From Polynucleobacter kasalickyi (GTDB lineage Bacteria; Pseudomonadota; Gammaproteobacteria; Burkholderiales; Burkholderiaceae): a DNA stretch of 64,000 bases. Numbering within the stretch: position 1 is the first letter of the stretch; every line of letters starts with the position of its first letter. Location: the NCBI RefSeq assembly GCF_900176405.1, contig NZ_FWXJ01000002.1, positions 186,001-250,000 on the forward strand, read 5' to 3'. This document shows positions 1-7,426 of the stretch, in pieces. A program made the translations under genes and the position numbers. Under the pieces are notes generated by a model. The model did no database searches. It saw nothing but the letters and a program-made list of their open reading frames with translations, and was not told where the DNA came from.

Positions 1-1
1 C

Positions 2-115
2 GTTATTTTGGCAGACGCCGCAGTAACGGTAGTTACTACAAGTGTAAAAGTGGTGGCAAAGACCGTAGAAACTGCGGTGGATGTTGTCACTCCATCTCGT
101 AAAAAAGAAAATTAA
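2..115 (+). CDS. C-terminal end of a small lipoprotein-like protein (partial)
   Basis: An open frame enters from the left edge and stops at 113-115, giving 37 residues rich in Val, Thr and Lys that end VVTPSRKKEN. The alternating valine-rich composition with a TAVDVVTPS tail resembles the ends of very small bacterial lipoproteins annotated as NF038104-like; that assignment is from memory. The start, signal peptide and lipobox lie outside the window. It converges on the minus-strand gene ending at 154. Another frame also stays open to 102, but its Cys/Arg-rich content looks less protein-like. Confidence 0.4.
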   Translation, partial: VILADAAVTVVTTSVKVVAKTVETAVDVVTPSRKKEN

Positions 116-153
116 AGTTTGCTAAAGAACGGATGCGTTTCGACTTGTTGAGC

Positions 154-759
154 TTAGTCTTCCTTTCGCTCTGAGATTTTATATTCCTTTGCTTGACGCT
201 CCGTAACATATGTCATATTCGTTGATTTTGCGCTGTTGGCGTATTCGAGGAGTCGTGGATCGATTCCCATCATTTCTAAATATCGAATTAAACTTTGATT
301 GATTCTTTGTTGTTGCTCCAAATCAAGTACCTGCGTTTTACTGTAGTAATGATGAAGTCCTAGATGCGCAGTAGGGGGCAACTTTCTGATGACTCCCCCA
401 AAAAAAGCATATGCACATGCTGATAAACAATCTGCAGAGCTGTATTCAGTATTGCCAATAATCGTATTAAATTTTGCTTCTCGAATGCGTTTGCCAATCA
501 TGAGGCCACTATCGAGCATCCCACCTTTGCTAGAAAATAAAACATAGGTTCCAGCGGGAAATTGGCGCGAAAAATCGGTGAATTGCTTTGGTGTATCTTT
601 CGTGATGATGCCCACAGCAATAATCATCTGTTGACATTTTGGTTCTAAATCTTGAAAACACCTAGATTCAGTGGAGAGATCCATGGCAAAACAAGGCCAA
701 TATGCCACTGTGATGGCCAATTGGAAAATAGAAATTAGAATGGTTTTAGGAGTAAGCAT
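154..759 (-). CDS. Exported ClpP-like (COG3904-type) protein
   Basis: Starting at the ATG at 757-759 the protein has 201 residues and a clear signal peptide (MLTPKTILISIFQLA, then cleavage near PCFA). A TTG 24 bases upstream is also possible. The mature part has the ClpP/crotonase-like pattern of predicted periplasmic proteins: VLFSSKGGMLDSG, then ADCLSACAYAFFGG, where the Ser of SACAY sits where the nucleophile is expected, then a His in LGLHHYYS. Substrate is unknown. It lies about 50 bases downstream of hipA on the same strand, so the two may share a transcript. Fold call is fairly sure, proteolytic activity is inference. Confidence 0.65.
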   Translation of the reverse strand: MLTPKTILISIFQLAITVAYWPCFAMDLSTESRCFQDLEPKCQQMIIAVGIITKDTPKQFTDFSRQFPAGTYVLFSSKGGMLDSGLMIGKRIREAKFNTIIGNTEYSSADCLSACAYAFFGGVIRKLPPTAHLGLHHYYSKTQVLDLEQQQRINQSLIRYLEMMGIDPRLLEYANSAKSTNMTYVTERQAKEYKISERKED

Positions 760-811
760 TGGTTGAATAGGATGAATTACCAATCGTTGAAAGAGAGGCT
801 TACTAAGTTCC

Positions 812-2158
812 TTAAAGTGTAGAGCAATTGGCTAAATAAAGTCTATGCCCTGATACCACTCGGTTTCGATCTTCTGCTGCCACTCCCCATTGTTTGCCAA
901 GCTTAGACCAATTGCAGAAGGCATCAACAGTCGCATCAATGATTGTTCCTGGATGGTGAATATCAAACTTTTTCCCAATTGAAATGAGTTCATCTCTTGT
1001 GAAATTATCTCCCCGTCCTGCTATCGTCATTTGGTGTTGACGAGTATAACCGACCCCATATGAATAGGTTAAGTCGTAGGCTGGGGACAACTCCCATCCA
1101 GAGGATTTATCCTTCATTAAAAAAGAAATATTTTTGACATGGTCATCTTGGTTACGGCCAACCACATTGAAGATCATGCGTCGATAGGCTTGTTCCATAG
1201 ACGGGTAACCAAGATGTAATTCTTGAATGAGCCTGAACCATGCCTCATAACTATAGGCGCCAGGTAAGTTGTAATCCACATGGGTCATGCCCGCTAGGCT
1301 ATGCATATGGTGCTTCGCTACTTCTGTACGGTCAAATCGTTTGGTCATAAAGTGAAATAAATCACCATCTTCCAAATAGCTCACTTCCTCCATGTCGAGT
1401 TCCAGTTGCTTGGCTAATAATGCGTAGGTATATTCAATGCGGTTGAAAGGTTTTGCTTTGTTATCACGCTCACTCGCAGAATTAACGCCATCAAATTTGA
1501 TCAGCCAATGCTCTTCGCCAACTCGGTGTTTTGCAAAGCCAGATCGCACCTTGTTTTTTTCACGATCCCATAAGATCAACGCTTTGGGTCTTGCCCCACC
1601 GGCAGAACCACCAACTCGCATAATTTCGTGAATTGCTTCCCCGGCTTCTCCCTCGATTAAGCGCCTAGCGGATTCGACTAAGCTCTTAATTTCTAGAGCT
1701 TGTTCTTCTTCTTGGCTCTTGCGCTGAAGGTGTGGTGCATATTCAAGTGCTCCCATTGCTCGATTTCCAACATACAGTAAACGCTGCACTGGACTCATCG
1801 ACTTTTCAAGTTCTCCACGCTCTTCGAAATATTTTTTAATAATCAAGTTACCGAAAGTATCTGGTAATGAGTCCGCTAGAACTCCAGGTAGACCCATGAA
1901 CGCTTCTTGACGTTGCAAGTCAGGGAACTCGAAGGTACGAGACTCAATTGGTAAAAATTTGGGGGAAATGGCTAAGCCCCCATTTCGAATATATTCACTG
2001 TCGTAGGAAAAGCCAATACGACCGTTCTCAAACTCCATTACTACTCCAACCATCTCGTCCCATAGACGAATATTGGCTTTGGCTAGAACCCTGGGGCCTG
2101 TTTTACGGGACCGAGGCCTTGGGGTTGGCGAAGAAGAAGATGCTTTATTGTCCGACAT
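812..2158 (-). CDS. hipA: HipA-family serine/threonine kinase toxin
   Basis: Type II toxin kinase. HipA of E. coli phosphorylates glutamyl-tRNA synthetase and halts translation; the target here is unknown. The N-terminal HipA domain (IRLWDEMVGVVMEFENGRIGF) is followed by the P-loop segment VGGSAGGARPKAL, whose Ser aligns with the autophosphorylated Ser150 of E. coli HipA. LIKF supplies the ATP-binding Lys, RNQDDHVKNISF is the catalytic loop and LSPAYDLTYS the metal-binding Asp motif, so the kinase looks intact. The start is uncertain. A GTG at 2216-2218 would overlap hipB by 74 bases; the ATG at 2156-2158 overlaps by 14 bases and is preferred, giving 448 residues. Neither has a strong ribosome-binding site, which fits translational coupling to hipB. 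Confidence 0.9.
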   Translation of the reverse strand: MSDNKASSSSPTPRPRSRKTGPRVLAKANIRLWDEMVGVVMEFENGRIGFSYDSEYIRNGGLAISPKFLPIESRTFEFPDLQRQEAFMGLPGVLADSLPDTFGNLIIKKYFEERGELEKSMSPVQRLLYVGNRAMGALEYAPHLQRKSQEEEQALEIKSLVESARRLIEGEAGEAIHEIMRVGGSAGGARPKALILWDREKNKVRSGFAKHRVGEEHWLIKFDGVNSASERDNKAKPFNRIEYTYALLAKQLELDMEEVSYLEDGDLFHFMTKRFDRTEVAKHHMHSLAGMTHVDYNLPGAYSYEAWFRLIQELHLGYPSMEQAYRRMIFNVVGRNQDDHVKNISFLMKDKSSGWELSPAYDLTYSYGVGYTRQHQMTIAGRGDNFTRDELISIGKKFDIHHPGTIIDATVDAFCNWSKLGKQWGVAAEDRNRVVSGHRLYLANCSTL

Positions 2159-2486
2159 TGATTTGGGAATCTTTTTGGGGAGAACTGGATCGGTAGGCAC
2201 GAACGCGAGGTTGTCCACGCTTTGAAAGTGCCGCGCCCCCCGGGAGAGTATCAGGCAGTGCTGTATTTAAAATACCTAATAAATGTAATGCCCGTAATAC
2301 TTTGATAACGGAACTAAACCGTACATCCCGACCGGCTTCCAGTTCCATAATCGTTTTACGGTTCAATCCAGTTTTTTCGGCGAGACCTTCGGTTGTTAGA
2401 TTGCGTTCAAGTCTTCTGGAGCGCAATCTTGTGCCGAATTCACTCATGTTTTCAAAATCTGTTAAAAAGTCACCTATAGAGGGCAT
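2145..2486 (-). CDS. hipB: HipB-like antitoxin, XRE-type HTH
   Basis: 113-residue DNA-binding antitoxin partner of the HipA kinase. A lambda-repressor-type HTH covers about residues 15-75 (FGTRLRSRRLERNLTTEGLA, then EKTGLNRKTIMELEAGRD). The last 30 residues are basic and Ser-rich and probably disordered, as in other HipB proteins, where the tail is protease-sensitive. The start ATG at 2484-2486 is supported by AAAGGA eight bases upstream. The gene precedes and slightly overlaps hipA, the usual order. It likely represses its own promoter through the repeats at 2491-2614. Confidence 0.88.
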   Translation of the reverse strand: MPSIGDFLTDFENMSEFGTRLRSRRLERNLTTEGLAEKTGLNRKTIMELEAGRDVRFSSVIKVLRALHLLGILNTALPDTLPGGAALSKRGQPRVRAYRSSSPQKDSQINVGQ

Positions 2487-2501
2487 ATTAGATCCTTTAA
2501 A

Positions 2502-2560
2502 TTCATAATGTCCAATATAGCATACAAAAAGAAAACTTTAAATAATTTTTCATAATGTCC
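2502..2560 (-). promoter_or_regulatory. hipB promoter zone with a 12-bp direct repeat
   Basis: TTCATAATGTCC occurs twice exactly, at 2502-2513 and 2549-2560, 47 bp apart. On the minus strand the copies read GGACATTATGAA and flank TATGCTATATT (2514-2524), a plausible -10 element for hipBA. Promoter position is inferred from sequence only. Confidence 0.4.
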
Positions 2561-2596
2561 TTTAATATACGCATATATAGTAAATGATGTTAATAA

Positions 2597-2614
2597 TATC
2601 CTTTTTAATGGATT
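2597..2614. promoter_or_regulatory. Candidate HipB operator
   Basis: TATCC, eight bases, GGATT. This matches 9 of 10 defined positions of the E. coli HipB operator TATCC-N8-GGATA, with the same 8-bp spacing. It lies 110 bp upstream of hipB. A half-site, GATCC, overlaps the hipB ribosome-binding site at 2491-2495. The rest of the 317-bp gap to 2803 is AT-rich with nothing else clear. Confidence 0.45.
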
Positions 2615-2803
2615 TTATGAATTATTAAAATTTATTTTTTCTTAACCAGTAATAAGCCCTAAATATTTTCACAGTTTATAGTTGAGCAAAACAAGCGACT
2701 TAGGGTTGGTTTTTGAGGCTCTATTGGAAGCAAGGGATATTTAATATGAGCCTTCCCTAGTTGGGTATCAAGACATAAAATTCAACTACTATTGGAAAAT
2801 ATT

Positions 2804-3310
2804 ATGAACACCATCACACCATTTCAGATTACCCGAGAATTTCAGGCGCCAAGAACTTTACTTTGGGCTGTTCAAACGCAAGCTGAGCACCTTAAAAATT
2901 GGCTTAGTCCACAGGGCTTTCATACGATTCATGTGGAGATTGACTTTAGGGTGGGCGGTCGTTATTTTTACGGTATTGAAGGGCCAAATGGAATGCAAAT
3001 GTGGGGGTTGCAGGAATATAAGGAAATCGAACCCGAGCTCAAATTAGTACACTTACAAAGTTTTTCCAATAAAGATGGAGGATTAAGTCGTCATCCGATG
3101 GCGCCTACCTGGCCAGCATATATGTATGTAACTTCTACTTTTCAAGATAGTTCAAGTGGCGGTACGATTTACACGATTTCGTGGGAGCCACATGAAAGTG
3201 ATGAAGTGGGGGTTGCAACTTTTAACGCTGCTCGTGCAGGTATGCAAATGGGTTTTGACGGCACTTTTGCTAAGCTTGATCAATACCTAATTGAATTGCA
3301 GAGACGATAG
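2804..3310 (+). CDS. SRPBCC / AHSA1-domain protein
   Basis: 168-residue protein of the START-like SRPBCC fold, close to the Activator of Hsp90 ATPase homologue 1 group. Typical features are ITREFQAPRTLLWAVQTQ at the N-terminus, HLKNWLSPQGF, and the DFRVGGRYFYGI strand near residue 50, ending in a helix (GMQMGFDGTFAKLDQYL). Such proteins bind small hydrophobic ligands; the ligand cannot be told from sequence. The ATG at 2804 is chosen over a TTG at 2792 because GGAAA sits six bases before it. It stands alone between hipB and an ssrA-derived repeat. Confidence 0.8.
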   Translation: MNTITPFQITREFQAPRTLLWAVQTQAEHLKNWLSPQGFHTIHVEIDFRVGGRYFYGIEGPNGMQMWGLQEYKEIEPELKLVHLQSFSNKDGGLSRHPMAPTWPAYMYVTSTFQDSSSGGTIYTISWEPHESDEVGVATFNAARAGMQMGFDGTFAKLDQYLIELQRR

Positions 3311-3312
3311 GC

Positions 3313-3335
3313 CAAAGAGAAGGGCCTGAGGCCCC
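3313..3335 (-). terminator. Hairpin GGGCC-TGA-GGCCC
   Basis: Perfect 5-bp GC stem with a 3-base loop at 3322-3334. On the minus strand it is followed by TTCTCTTT. It lies just beyond the decayed ssrA 3' end at 3352-3416 in the same relation as the intact ssrA has to its own terminator, so it may be the displaced ssrA terminator. It could also end the SRPBCC transcript on the plus strand. Confidence 0.4.
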
Positions 3336-3351
3336 TAATTGACTTACGCAT

Positions 3352-3416
3352 TGGTGAAACCCGCGGGAATTAAACCCACGATGGCAAATCATCTACATAA
3401 AACTCCAAATGCTTAG
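3352..3416 (-). repeat. Decayed copy of the ssrA 3' end (att-like scar)
   Basis: Aligned without gaps to the last 65 bases of ssrA (7067-7131), I count 49 identities (75 percent). Both ends match: TGGTG (the CCA side) and CTTAG. Orientation is the same as ssrA. Elements that integrate in tmRNA genes rebuild the 3' end on one side and leave the old 3' end at the far side; this segment fits that displaced copy, now mutated. It is not a working RNA because the acceptor and T-stem pairings are broken. Confidence 0.7.
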
Positions 3417-3504
3417 AAAAGTCAAAACCCAGTGAATAGATTCTTCGGAATGAATTCCTAAGGCTAGCCAACGGATAGATGAACTGTTTTAGATCTGATC
3501 GGAG

Positions 3505-3888
3505 TTAAATAGAGGCATAACCCTCGATTTCAATCAAAAATCTTGGATCGGCTAGAGCTGAAACCACTACAAGCGTTGAAGCTGGACAATGACCTTGAAG
3601 ATATTTTGCTCTAATTTCTACAAAATTTTTGATTTGTTCTGGACTTGTTAAATAAGAATTAATTTTAATTAAGTTCTTAATTGACATGTCAGACTCTTCA
3701 AGGATGGCGATGATATTTTTCCATACAACCTCACATTGCTCAATCAACGAGTTTGGGACAGTACCATCAGATTTGATTGCAACCTGACCAGAGATCGCTA
3801 AAAATTTAGATCCTTCAGTAACTAGAACACCATGAGAATAGGTACCATTCGGTGCCGAAATTGTTTTAGGATTTAATAGTTGAATCAT
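3505..3888 (-). CDS. RidA (YjgF/YER057c/UK114) family protein
   Basis: 127 residues, the normal length of the family. RidA proteins hydrolyse reactive enamine/imine intermediates; other subfamilies have other roles. The signature CPASTLVVVSALADPRFLIEIEGYA is present, including the Arg that binds the substrate carboxylate and the Glu near the C-terminus, so imine deaminase activity is possible. There is no ribosome-binding site before the ATG at 3886-3888. A 12-codon frame (ATG at 3922-3924, with AAGGTGA upstream) ends in an ATGA overlap with this start and may drive translation by coupling. It is divergent from the M24-fold gene at 4258. Confidence 0.85.
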   Translation of the reverse strand: MIQLLNPKTISAPNGTYSHGVLVTEGSKFLAISGQVAIKSDGTVPNSLIEQCEVVWKNIIAILEESDMSIKNLIKINSYLTSPEQIKNFVEIRAKYLQGHCPASTLVVVSALADPRFLIEIEGYASI

Positions 3889-4257
3889 ATTTTTCGAGAT
3901 GTTAATTTGATGATGTTCTGCATGAAATCACCTTACTTTTCTTCAAACTTTAAACCTTGTAAGTGATCAATAAAAGTAGGTGATATACCTATACGTTAAA
4001 TGATTCTCTGCGAAGTCAGTAAGAACCTGTGCAAACACGGGTTAGTCTGAACAAAAGTTAACCGAGTCAGGGTTGACCTTTAAGTTTTGAAAGTTTTGTA
4101 CTCTCATAATATTGTGGAGCTAGAATTTTTGGATCGGTGGATTGGCAATAGTACGAAAGTTCTGGCCGTGCTGTCAGCGCAATCATTGAATGAGCTTTGT
4201 TATTTTAAACCTTTAGAGATAGAATATAAATAATAAAAATCTATATAGGGAGACATC
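3889..4257. other. 369-bp divergent intergenic region between ridA-like and M24-like genes
   Basis: It contains a long imperfect inverted repeat, ATCACCTTACTTTT at 3927-3940 and AAAAGTAGGTGAT at 3972-3984 (13 paired bases, one bulge), overlapping AGGT-GATAT-ACCT at 3979-3991. These are plausible operators for the divergent pair. A 48-codon frame from a TTG at 4087 to a stop at 4231-4233 ends NELCYFKPLEIEYK. I do not recognise it and do not call it a gene. GGGAG at 4247-4251 is the M24-like ribosome-binding site. Confidence 0.4.
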
Positions 4258-5565
4258 ATGGATAGAAGATCATTTGAAAAACTTCTTGTGGGAGGCGGCG
4301 TTGGTGCTGGCTTATTACTCAATAACAATTCCCTTCATGCTAAATCATTTGAGGGAATGAATCCTGCAGATTATTTACAACTGCCATCTAATTTCCGATC
4401 TATCTTCGACCAACCTTATCCCCAATTTACAGAACAAGAATACTCGAGAAGAAAACAGGCGCTTGTAGATGTAATGAATGCACAAGAAATCGATACGCTC
4501 CTTATAGTAACAACTGGAGGACTCGGTAATGCCACACGATGGATTACCAATTGGCCCGGAACTCAACAAGCTCTTACGGTATTTAAGCCCAATCAAAACT
4601 CCACGATGTTCGTGGAATACCATAATCACGTAGCTCTAGCAAAGATGCTTGCCAGAGATACTGAAGTCATTTGGGGTGGAGACAAAGGAATGGCTCCTTT
4701 GATGGAGTTTTTGGCAAAACAAAACACTAAAAAAATTGGTGTCATTGGCCCTTTAGTTGGCCCACGTTGGAAAATTCTAGAATCTAAATATCAAGTCGTA
4801 AGTTTAGATAACGAATATATCAAGTTAAGAATGATTAAGTCAGAAGAAGAAATTTCTTGGCTAAGAGTTGGTGCGGCAATGAGTGATTTAGGAATGGCGG
4901 CACTTATTAAAGGAACTCGTCCTGGCATGACCGAACACGAACTTGCTGATCTTATTGAAAGAACTTATATTGGTCTTGGCGGCAATAACTGGATTCATTA
5001 TATTGGTTCAACATCAATGAAATCCCCAGATGTATGTGTGCCAAGACAATTTACATCCAGAAGAAAAATCCAAAAAGGAGATTTTGTCTTTTGTGAACTT
5101 TCCGCTTCATTCTGGGATTATTCTGGTCAAGTTTTAAGAGGATTTTCAGTGGATGCAGAGCCAACTTCTCTTTACAAGGATTTGCATCAAACTGCATACA
5201 GTGCCTTTAACAGTATTACGAAAGTCATTCGCCCAGGGGTGAATGCTAAAGAATTAATAGAAGCCTCCGGAATAATAGAGCGTAATGGCTTTACAACGAA
5301 TGACGATTTGGTTCATGGCTATGGTGGTGGGTATTTTGCACCAATTTTAGGTTCCAAAAGTCGTCCCTCTGGACATTCTGCAGATATGGAATTAAAAGAA
5401 AATATGTGTATGGTTGTTCAACCGAATGTCATTACTCCTGATCAAAAAGCTGGTGTGCAGTTTGGTGAACTGGTAAGAGTTACGAAAAATGGTTTCGAAT
5501 CACTTCATCGCATGCCTCACGGCTTATTTAAAGCGGGGCAAGACGTAAAAGTTTTAAATACCTAA
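4258..5565 (+). CDS. Tat-exported M24 (pita-bread fold) protein, metal site degraded
   Basis: 435 residues. The N-terminus MDRRSFEKLLVGGG is a twin-arginine signal, so export of a folded protein is likely. The creatinase-type N-terminal domain (about 50-180) is followed by an M24 domain (about 185-430). Active Xaa-Pro peptidases use Asp, Asp, His, Glu, Glu as metal ligands. Here the first Asp position reads FCELSASFWDYSGQ, the GHG-type His motif reads GYGGGYFAPIL, the EPG motif reads VVQPNV, and the last Glu motif reads VQFGELVRVT. Most ligands therefore seem lost, as in creatinase, which is metal-free. A hydrolase of an unusual C-N bond or a pseudoenzyme are both possible. Start is supported by GGGAG seven bases upstream. 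Confidence 0.8.
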   Translation: MDRRSFEKLLVGGGVGAGLLLNNNSLHAKSFEGMNPADYLQLPSNFRSIFDQPYPQFTEQEYSRRKQALVDVMNAQEIDTLLIVTTGGLGNATRWITNWPGTQQALTVFKPNQNSTMFVEYHNHVALAKMLARDTEVIWGGDKGMAPLMEFLAKQNTKKIGVIGPLVGPRWKILESKYQVVSLDNEYIKLRMIKSEEEISWLRVGAAMSDLGMAALIKGTRPGMTEHELADLIERTYIGLGGNNWIHYIGSTSMKSPDVCVPRQFTSRRKIQKGDFVFCELSASFWDYSGQVLRGFSVDAEPTSLYKDLHQTAYSAFNSITKVIRPGVNAKELIEASGIIERNGFTTNDDLVHGYGGGYFAPILGSKSRPSGHSADMELKENMCMVVQPNVITPDQKAGVQFGELVRVTKNGFESLHRMPHGLFKAGQDVKVLNT

Positions 5566-5739
5566 CACTTCACATCAGATATGGCAGTTAGAAGAAGGCA
5601 AGCAAAATGCATCGTGGCTTCCACTTTTGGACTGCTTTGTGAAGAACCAGAGCCTTAATATCTAGTTTGCCAGATATGGCCGATGGTTAGAAATAGGTGG
5701 ATAAATGTAAGTAATTAAACGTAGGTAATAATTTGGGGT

Positions 5740-5785
5740 CATATACCTCGAAGGAAGTTTTTTACGCTAACCTCCGAGGTATATG
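5740..5785. repeat. Inverted repeat with 11-bp arms
   Basis: CATATACCTCG at 5740-5750 and its exact complement CGAGGTATATG at 5775-5785, with a 24-base loop. A T-rich stretch follows but no clean U-tract. It could be an end of a lost element, an operator or a weak terminator for the M24-like gene. Confidence 0.5.
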
Positions 5786-5955
5786 TTTATTGACTTTACC
5801 GCCTGTCAATAGTTGTTTTGGTGGTGTGGTGCTGCCAACGGCAAACGACTCAAGAAAGATCATTAATGAGACTTCCCGGTTGCCCCGGAAGATCTCCAAT
5901 TCAATCCCCATATGGCCTGGCGCGCAGGTGACGCACTTAAAGGTCGAGCTCGAAA

Positions 5956-5977
5956 TTGCGGACGCGGGTTCGATTCC
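5956..5977 (+). repeat. Exact 22-bp copy of the ssrA T-arm region (att-core-like), inverted
   Basis: The plus strand carries GCGGACGCGGGTTCGATTCC preceded by TT. This equals the minus-strand ssrA sequence at 7081-7102 with no mismatch, and similarity stops abruptly on both sides. The T-arm and 3' end of tmRNA is a known crossover site of tyrosine integrases. The copy is inverted relative to ssrA, so it is not a simple attL/attR pair: a later inversion or a second element is needed. Confidence 0.7.
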
Positions 5978-6070
5978 GTAAATCACAATTGAACCTTAGT
6001 CCAAATCGACTTGACTTCACTTTTTAAAGAAGCGTTCATTGGTTTTTAACCAACCCAAAAGGAAGCTCCG

Positions 6071-6217
6071 ATGGACTTCATTCACTTCAATCAAAAACAA
6101 CTTGCTGTCCGGTGGCAAGTGGCCGAGGCCACTTTTGAGCTTCTGTTGGATTCCGTCTTATCCGATATTGGTATACATTTTTCAGACAAAACCGTGATCC
6201 CCGCGCAAAAACACTAA
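6071..6217 (+). pseudogene. Truncated HTH (excisionase/AlpA-like) gene remnant
   Basis: A 48-codon frame starts at an ATG with AAGGAAG upstream. Its first part, IHFNQKQLAVRWQVAEATFE, has the look of the MerR/AlpA-type HTH of small mobile-element proteins, where a QLAxRWxxSExTLERWR pattern is usual. After residue 23 the sequence no longer fits that pattern and stops early. It lies 94 bases after the att-like core, a natural place for an excisionase. The family resemblance is from memory. Confidence 0.5.
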
Positions 6218-6489
6218 CTAATGCACAATCTCCTTGAAAAGCACCTGCATTGTGTAAAACCGGTCATGACAAGGCAGGAGAGTAAGTCAATGATTAGCGC
6301 GTGGGTTGCGCATAGTAAATGAGAAAACCCAGGCTGGATGTTTGAAATATTTGCGATAGTTCGCCTTAAATGTGATTTTTAGAGATTATTTCAATCAAAT
6401 CGTTGCTGAGTAAGCTGGAGCTTGCTTGAGTTCATCCTATTTCAGAAACCAGCCTCGGCAACCATCATGTCGATGAATTTCAATTTTGA

Positions 6490-6552
6490 CGACACGAACC
6501 CAAGACGTGTCGTTAGATTTCAAAAATGTCGACACATTATCTGGGCGTGTCG
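6490..6552. promoter_or_regulatory. Cluster of TGTCG motifs upstream of the Fic remnant
   Basis: CGACACG (6490-6496) and CGTGTCG (6506-6512) form a 7-bp inverted repeat. The palindrome TGTCGACA (6527-6534) and another CGTGTCG (6546-6552) follow. Four sites in 63 bp, about 70 bases before the fic fragment, look like a relict operator array. Confidence 0.4.
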
Positions 6553-6618
6553 CTCGTATCTCTATATCATCGAAACATGCCGATAAAAATGATTTTTTAA
6601 ACCATGAGGAATGCTGAG

Positions 6619-6738
6619 ATGTCCTGGATCGCCGAAAAACCACACAACAGTCTTCCTCCACTGCCTCCAGCTCAAAATCTGGAAAGTCGAACTGTTTTGA
6701 AGGCGTGCATCAATGCACAAACGACTCAAAATATCTGA
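6619..6738 (+). pseudogene. Fic-family protein, N-terminal fragment
   Basis: A 39-codon frame reads SWIAEKPHNSLPPLPPA and then TVLKACINAQT before a stop. This matches the start of Fic/DOC N-terminal-domain proteins (the WIAxxPYNxLPPLPP and VLKACIxARxAL pattern, from memory). The Fic core with HPFxDGNGR is absent downstream, so only a fragment remains. Fic proteins transfer AMP to target proteins; this fragment cannot. Confidence 0.65.
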
Positions 6739-6840
6739 CATCTGACAGCTGACCTTTTTCTTGATGAGTGAACTGTCTTAGTTTTGGCCAAATAGAACGA
6801 AAATATGGTTCAACTCTATTTTCCCAATATTCACTTCTTT

Positions 6841-7060
6841 GATCGCCCGGACGTACCCCGTTGATTTATATAGGGGTGACGGGCGTGCCTTCCGGACTTC
6901 GGTCTGCGCTGGGTAGGGAGGGTCGGAGAGAAAATGTGCAAACGGAGAGAAAGCCTGCCGGTTGCTGGCAGAAATGCCTCTCTCCATAGTCCGCAGGAAC
7001 CCGCGCAAATTCGCGGTAGTAGGCAAAAAAAAGCCAACCGGGTTAGGGTTGGCCTTTTTA
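6841..7060 (+). ncRNA. Candidate structured RNA: chain of GC-rich hairpins ending in a terminator
   Basis: In an otherwise AT-rich zone this stretch is visibly GC-rich and has no convincing reading frame. It folds on paper into four successive hairpins. H1 6845-6884 pairs GCCCG with CGGGC and ACCCC with GGGGT. H2 6893-6906 is a 5-bp stem closed by a C(UUCG)G tetraloop. H3 pairs 6945-6951 GGAGAGA with 6979-6985 TCTCTCC. H4 pairs 7001-7005 CCGCG with 7012-7016 CGCGG. A hairpin with a T-run at 7033-7059 then ends it. UUCG rather than its complement favours plus-strand transcription. A good sigma-70 promoter was not found, only AATATT at 6826-6831 as a -10 guess. Confidence 0.3.
7025..7059. terminator. 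Bidirectional terminator downstream of ssrA
   Basis: GCCAACC (7033-7039), 7-base loop, GGTTGGC (7047-7053). On the minus strand it is followed by eight T (7025-7032), ending ssrA. On the plus strand it is followed by C and five T, so it could also end a transcript from the hairpin-rich segment. Confidence 0.85.
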
Positions 7061-7066
7061 AGGTTT

Positions 7067-7426
7067 TGGTGGAACCGGCGGGAATCGAACCCGCGTCCGC
7101 AAATCCTCTACAAAGAGTTCTACATACTTAGTTATATCATTTGATTTAATTCATGCAACGCGGATTAACACGCTTTACAGGAACGATTCCCTTTAGTTCT
7201 AGCTCCATTAACAGTGACCTTTAATGGCACGATCCGATATAAATGACCTCGAATGGTATTTCTACCCCAACCTATCGGCAAATTGGTACGAGGGCCACAG
7301 CCCTTAGGCTGCTAGTGCGTAACGTTCGTCGTTAGCAGTTATTACAATTCCCATTGATTTACGAGATAACGGGTCCTCGGTATGCCCTCCGTGCTTCGCA
7401 ATCCACGTCGAAACCAAGTCGGTCCC
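7067..7426 (-). ncRNA. ssrA: tmRNA (ssrA), tag ANDERYALAA
   Basis: 360-base transfer-messenger RNA that rescues stalled ribosomes. The 5' end GGGACCG pairs with CGGTTCC at the 3' end (7 bp, one G-U), followed by encoded ACCA. The T-arm is GCGGGTTCGATTCCCGC. The tag frame GCT AAC GAC GAA CGT TAC GCA CTA GCA GCC TAA (7304-7336) encodes ANDERYALAA, with the resume Ala codon and the LAA end seen by ClpXP. Most betaproteobacteria have ANDERFALAA, so Phe to Tyr is a small variant. It lies downstream of gph and upstream of a scarred integration zone. Confidence 0.97.

Follow-up and report, generated by a model that had tools for sequence, protein, structure and literature searches.

The locus described here raises the question of how a 65-nt likeness of the ssrA 3′ end came to lie well downstream of the ssrA gene, and whether the DNA between the two arrived in one insertion or in several. 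Both the gene (tmRNA; 7067-7426, minus strand), which we treat as the integration target, and the likeness (3352-3416, minus strand) lie in the window, by which we mean the whole 64,000-nt stretch of the Polynucleobacter kasalickyi genome that was analysed. The initial annotation had described 3352-3416 as an old, decayed copy of the ssrA 3′ end, in the same orientation and with identical ends. Aligned without gaps to the last 65 nt of ssrA, it matches at 49 of 65 positions, with the same orientation and the same end. Its first 5 and last 5 bases are those of the ssrA end, and the likeness stops beyond both of its borders. The runner-up among ungapped 65-nt matches to the ssrA end reaches 32/65 in the window and 33/65 in the contig (C19:1-250000). 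In a local alignment with ssrA the copy scored 50, compared to a maximum of 29 across 200 shuffles of ssrA. Among 36 ssrA-downstream flanks of relatives, the best match to a relative's own ssrA end was 35/65, and no copy like 3352-3416 was present in the 32 congener flanks, each scanned with its own ssrA end. These scores rule out chance as the source of the copy, and an origin from an unrelated gene was rejected on the same match statistics.

A tRNA remnant was also considered as the source, and was rejected because ARAGORN finds no tRNA gene in the window. An Rfam search over 2500-7066 (E up to 1) left the copy unmatched, as can be expected for a decayed fragment; the single match in that interval was to tmRNA, at 5930-5978. 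The T-loop of the copy has lost the conserved TTC by mutation, as expected of a sequence that is not used. The copy is slightly closer to the ssrA genes of the relatives G015 and G069 (51/65 each) than to that of its own genome, a gap too small to decide from which allele it came.

Read in the RNA sense, the CACCA end of the copy is followed by 4 nt and then by a hairpin segment (3347 down to 3314). A hairpin at 3322-3334 had been put forward earlier as a possible displaced ssrA terminator. We compared the 61 nt past the copy with the 80 nt that immediately follow ssrA in each of 36 relatives (32 congeners and 4 from other families). The segment 3314-3347 (minus strand) matched the ssrA terminator of congener G009 (L054) at 26 of 34 positions, ungapped and at the same offset (z 9.2), and that of congener G011 (L056) in a gapped alignment with the offset off by 1 nt (z 6.3). 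The third-best z among the 36 flanks was 1.2. The hairpin is real, and the displaced piece thus carries a terminator type that is still used behind ssrA in two congeners. Given the 49/65 match and the congener-like terminator beyond it, we conclude from sequence comparison that 3352-3416 represents a displaced ssrA 3′ end with its terminator, old and decayed as the initial annotation had it.

The DNA between the copy and ssrA is a different matter. The initial annotation had viewed 3417-7066 as a single inserted island that some close relatives should lack. A second displaced ssrA 3′ flank, consisting of a terminator and the CCACC end of ssrA, lies at 5714-5824 (minus strand); over 111 nt, it shares 83% identity with the DNA that adjoins the ssrA 3′ end in congener G069. 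Upstream of ssrA, G069 shares the gene order of the window, with DNA that is 70% identical. In G069, DNA like 5714-5824 adjoins the ssrA 3′ end directly and 5825-7066 is absent. In the window, the same flank is 1.25 kb from ssrA, and 5825-7066 lies between them, bounded by the direct repeat GTTTTGGTGG. The two copies of this repeat, read directly from the sequence at 5815-5824 and 7063-7072, are only 10 nt long, and the second includes the CCA end of ssrA. Further out, a RidA-like gene (3505-3888, minus strand) is 88% identical to a gene 2.1 kb behind ssrA in G069. An M24-like peptidase gene (4258-5565, plus strand) had no more than distant matches in the 36 congeners searched, and no homologues of the M24, AHSA1 or hipBA genes were found in the 13 kb of G069 examined. 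The 36 ssrA flanks compared first shared no DNA with window positions 1-7066, and their sole protein-level match to this region was a HipA protein with 25% identity (L053). Relatives without the interval were sought; G069 lacks 5825-7066, and none was found with a clean empty site for exactly 3417-7066. Since the interval contains the displaced flank at 5714-5824, a second copy of a repeat described below (RE2, 3998-4089) and a separate wreck at 5825-7066 that is absent from G069, the view of 3417-7066 as one island is not supported.

Within the genus, insertions recur on the 3′ side of ssrA, which is a hot spot for them. A methyltransferase-like gene, identified by eye and pointing at ssrA, lies downstream of ssrA in 24 of 33 congener loci, at a distance of 39-127 nt in 6 of the 24 and of 1.3-10.5 kb in the other 18; two of the remaining nine loci have almost no downstream sequence. 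In the present genome, the best match to this gene is on another contig (C31; 46% identity), which rules out the DNA left of the copy as the usual native neighbour of ssrA. No ssrA fragment was found in the 40 kb examined around the match on C31. A subgroup of congeners (L050, L051, L054, L071, L075 and also L072) has gph 2.4-6.7 kb downstream of ssrA, a gene that elsewhere lies upstream; this would fit an inversion or a relocation of ssrA relative to gph. Two congeners with similar ssrA ends, G003 (L048) and G025 (L069), have contig breaks 134 nt past the ssrA end or 2 nt short of it, possibly a sign of repeated DNA at this place.

The DNA that abuts the ssrA 3′ end in the window, 6843-7066 (plus strand; RE1), contains a terminator-like hairpin (7030-7058). 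It is 78.7% identical over 197 nt to a Polaromonas plasmid, near toxin-antitoxin genes, and 63% identical to DNA of genome G131. Via these intermediates, RE1 could be aligned to a repeat of ~300 nt, RE, most copies of which terminate in a CCAACC...GGTTGG hairpin with TTGGTGG after it. A decayed second copy in the orientation of RE1 (RE2; 3998-4089, plus strand) matches at 72% over 86 nt, with a score of 38.9; the baseline, set by the best unrelated 200-nt segment of the window, was 15.3. A possible third and older copy (RE3; 2679-2730, plus strand) scored 19.7 against the same baseline, which is suggestive only. It covers 2697-2725, where a weak likeness to the ssrA end and terminator had been reported; what stands of that likeness is this alignment to the repeat and terminator of RE1.

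With an RE from Quisquiliibacterium as the query, we found matches in 52 of 399 genomes of the order, the probable source genome included. At an E value of 0.001 the query reached neither the present genome nor the 6 other congeners in the sample; hence, RE1 is a diverged member of RE. Among the 30 best RE loci, 15 are at the 3′ end of tmRNA and 3 at the 3′ end of tRNA-Phe, and for 12 no RNA gene was found; 4 of these 12 carry decayed T-arm and CCACCA ends. For 13 of the 18 loci with an RNA gene, the RE alignment extends up to the end of that gene; in the other 5, which include all three at tRNA-Phe, it starts 65-81 nt inside, such that contact with the gene is extrapolated. RE1, although diverged, likewise sits at the CCA end of the tmRNA gene. 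The repeat is found at tRNA-Phe(GAA) in three genomes (L172, L173 and L176), indicating that the target is not tmRNA alone.

The outer 59 nt of the ssrA-flanking repeat also have a ~95% match in plasmids (2019 records, 2013 of them at 90-95%). In the two plasmid records examined, the match sits between sul1 and ISCR1. In one of them, pCTX-M3 (69208-69266; L181:4001-4059), TTGGTGG, which resembles a tmRNA end, begins no more than a few bases after the match; the other record is L182:4001-4071. This match may bear on the origin of the sul1/ISCR1 junction.

Candidates for an enzyme that may move RE were sought among large serine recombinases (PF07508) in 26 genomes, namely, 24 of the 52 with RE, the present genome and G069. 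There were 14 matches, in 8 of the 26 genomes. Five matches lie 1.8-10.2 kb behind an RE and point towards it (G357, G238, G347, G039 and G444), and nine are not near RE. The RE concerned is at tRNA-Phe in G238, at tmRNA in G347, G039 and G444, and beside no RNA gene in G357. No PF07508 match was found in 16 of the 24 RE-bearing genomes searched, in the present genome or in G069. In G039 and G238, the recombinase (Resolvase, Recombinase and zinc ribbon domains) is part of a module in which it follows a DUF2924 gene and precedes a gene for a small protein. Identity to the G039 recombinase is 81-90% for the full-length enzymes of G347, G444 and G238, 83% for the truncated recombinase of G357, which is without the catalytic domain, and 71% for a fragment in G151. 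The corresponding values are 69-75% for DUF2924 in G347, G444 and G238, and 67-89% for the small protein in six genomes. Between genera, the genes of the module are 67-90% identical. The window has no homology to the module. Since the genome also has no PF07508 match, we infer the mover at this locus from relatives.

No clear displaced target end was detected at the distal border in the 11 target-adjacent loci scanned; the best candidates were 36/65 in G044, near a second RE and out of register, and 35/65 in G444, inside the module. A tyrosine integrase was tried as the mover of RE and rejected. Among the PF00589 matches listed (down to an E value of ~5e-15, with the RE neighbourhood read by eye), none lies within ~20 kb on the element side of RE in the 24 RE-bearing genomes, and one, in G152, lies 5 kb from RE on the non-element side. 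A cruder phmmer scan with three integrases of the present genome found none, which is weak evidence.

The DNA next to ssrA, 5825-7066, is the wreck of an element with relatives elsewhere. Its left end (5819-6262, plus strand) matches both tandem units of an array in G131, at 75% over 338 nt and 69% over 151 nt, and a segment at 6452-6496 (plus strand) is 91% identical to DNA beside hipA in that array. The tandem units of G131 carry AbiEi/AbiEii and HipA genes, the AbiEi match falling just below the Pfam cutoff. At the far side of the locus, a segment with HipA domains (829-2620, minus strand) is 77% identical to the hipBA unit of the same array. Positions 6071-6214 (plus strand) appear to be a remnant of a small HTH_17 (excisionase-like) gene. 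This stretch is conserved at the DNA level, and its N terminus resembles, by eye, that of L139:4205-4474, which matches PF12728; the 48-aa remnant itself had no Pfam match and no plasmid match. Elsewhere in the present genome, G000:C25:83764-83845 (L124) matches window positions 6339-6420 at 79%; its contig also has a tyrosine integrase domain, ~16 kb away.

Within this wreck, a 22-nt exact mimic of the ssrA T-arm lies at 5956-5977 (plus strand), inverted relative to ssrA. Similar sites occur in other genomes: a pattern built from T-arm mimics matched 16 stretches in the genome collection, spread over 14 contigs that are titled as Burkholderiales, other betaproteobacteria or unclassified Proteobacteria, and matched nothing in viral contigs. 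Several mimics are beside Fic, AbiE or HipA genes (by Pfam for L130 and L136, by eye for the others), and G044 has three behind ssrA, oriented as ssrA. Our guess is that the mimics may be secondary attachment sites. In L136 (2694-2735), the mimic is a near-perfect palindrome, with 19-bp arms, 2 mismatches and a 4-nt spacer, and sits just behind the Fic gene that follows ssrA.

We consider it highly probable that the DNA on the 3′ side of ssrA preserves, in layers, a succession of insertions at the end of this gene. This model builds on what is observed at the locus, namely, the homologies, the order of the pieces and the comparison with G069. Every insertion would have given ssrA a new end or terminator and pushed the prior one outwards, so that the layers would run from the youngest, beside ssrA, to the oldest. 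The youngest would be 5825-7066, a gutted element whose right end, RE1, forms the present flank of ssrA. The older layers would be, in order, the flank at 5714-5824, RE2 at 3998-4089, the copy with its terminator at 3314-3416 and, possibly, RE3 at 2679-2730. Insertion was presumably site specific, with each newcomer restoring the end of the gene, and RE1 and RE2 would be the ends of islands moved by an RE-associated large serine recombinase, as in other genomes of the order. The 65-nt copy probably came from a different event than the youngest layer, whose bounding repeat of 10 nt is far shorter. At least two insertions are stacked here, and probably three or more.

Other explanations can be set against this one. 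A classical tyrosine-integrase island could have entered in a single insertion, such that the copy is its displaced end and the rest of 3417-7066 its cargo. The copy is, indeed, a fragment of the gene's 3′ end that lies downstream of the gene in the same orientation, and its placement agrees with the signature used by Islander (PMC4383910). However, the interval contains RE2 and another displaced ssrA flank, and G069 retains part of the interval (the RidA-like gene and the flank) without another part, which contradicts a single island. Nor was an integrase found between gene and fragment: no tyrosine integrase domain (PF00589) was found on contig C19, and no PF07508 match was found in the genome. 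We therefore class the locus as the remains of islands and not as an intact tDNA island, and we regard a single tyrosine-integrase insertion as very unlikely. It is also unlikely, if slightly less so, that the copy arose by ordinary rearrangement, i.e., by partial duplication or recombination of ssrA DNA and not by site-specific integration. The lack of a recombinase found nearby would fit such an origin, as would the finding that no 65-nt copy of this kind is present in congeners that have insertions behind ssrA; on the other hand, the copy stops exactly where the gene does, its ssrA-type terminator follows at the expected distance, and it lies downstream of ssrA in the orientation of the gene.

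RE itself could be an inherited 3′ flank of Burkholderiales ssrA that was duplicated by chance together with the gene end, and not the end of a mobile element. That 15 of the 30 best loci have it at a tmRNA 3′ end is compatible with inheritance, as are the failure to find an intact distal border and the absence of PF07508 from most RE-bearing genomes searched. Nevertheless, we doubt this explanation, about as much as we doubt rearrangement: RE is also at tRNA-Phe in 3 of the 30 loci and beside no RNA gene in 12, it occurs on a Polaromonas plasmid, and its 59-nt tail occurs on many other plasmids. Its distribution is patchy (52/399 genomes), and a recombinase lies behind it in 5 genomes. Repeated insertion at the ssrA 3′ end remains our preferred reading. 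A broader proposal, which we advance tentatively and hold at somewhat less than even odds, is that a widespread family of islands in Burkholderiales, moved by a large serine recombinase linked to DUF2924, enters tmRNA or tRNA-Phe genes at the CCA end, supplies the target RNA with a terminator from the island and assembles toxin-antitoxin, Fic and AbiE arrays via T-arm-like secondary sites; at the present locus, such islands would then have replaced the ssrA end or terminator three or more times.

CcrB is a serine recombinase. In Dehalococcoides, two reports (PMC2764846 and PMC3146451) describe tandem islands at ssrA with several displaced ssrA 3′ fragments, some of the islands without integration genes of their own, and an integrase, DsiB, that is encoded in a reverse-strand module beside the ssrA repeat and was compared with CcrB1 of SCCmec. 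Similarly, two ssrA 3′ remnants lie in tandem behind ssrA in the window (3352-3416 and 5714-5824). According to those reports, the repeats in Dehalococcoides are 19-20 bp long and 16 islands keep the integration module; in contrast, the window has a 65-nt decayed copy with its own terminator. Insertion in Dehalococcoides is in the T-loop, with a repeat of ~20 bp; the window shows the 65-nt copy, a 10-nt repeat and a 22-nt inverted T-arm mimic. The Dehalococcoides integrase lies beside ssrA on the reverse strand, whereas here none was found in the window or genome and five other genomes have a serine recombinase behind the related repeat. The Burkholderiales module also differs from what is described there in that it pairs the recombinase with DUF2924 and occurs behind tRNA-Phe too.

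The same two protein families are found close together at the start of the Wolbachia WO prophage, where a large serine recombinase has a DUF2924 protein downstream (PMC11376236). That pair belongs to a prophage, whereas the Burkholderiales pair follows ssrA or tRNA-Phe, and some of the repeats have AbiE, Fic or HipA genes nearby. Among solved structures, the best sequence match to the Limnobacter-type recombinase (Resolvase, Recombinase and zinc ribbon domains) is the TP901-1 integrase (3bvp). The solved chain consists of a serine recombinase catalytic domain and nothing more, and the match is confined to residues 10-146. In a search that covered part of the literature, no description of the RE/DUF2924-recombinase island family was found among the matches listed. 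A displaced tmRNA end is of a kind already known; the layered terminators and the association of RE with a serine recombinase appear to be new.

Displaced tmRNA ends normally mark one island. Here, successive ends and terminators can be ordered and matched to the present ends of relatives, and the ordered former ends thereby give a relative chronology of insertion at one gene. In the Islander report, an island is recognized by a regenerated gene and a displaced 3′ fragment in the same orientation, with an integrase required in the interval (PMC4383910). The present locus shares the gene and the same-orientation fragment with such islands but differs from them in that no integrase was found. 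According to that report, from 2014, no family other than the tyrosine recombinases was known to target tDNAs. RE, which in five genomes has a serine recombinase behind it, occurs at a class of target, tmRNA and tRNA-Phe, that the report assigns to tyrosine recombinases only, and Dehalococcoides is the precedent that we found for another type of enzyme at this class of target.
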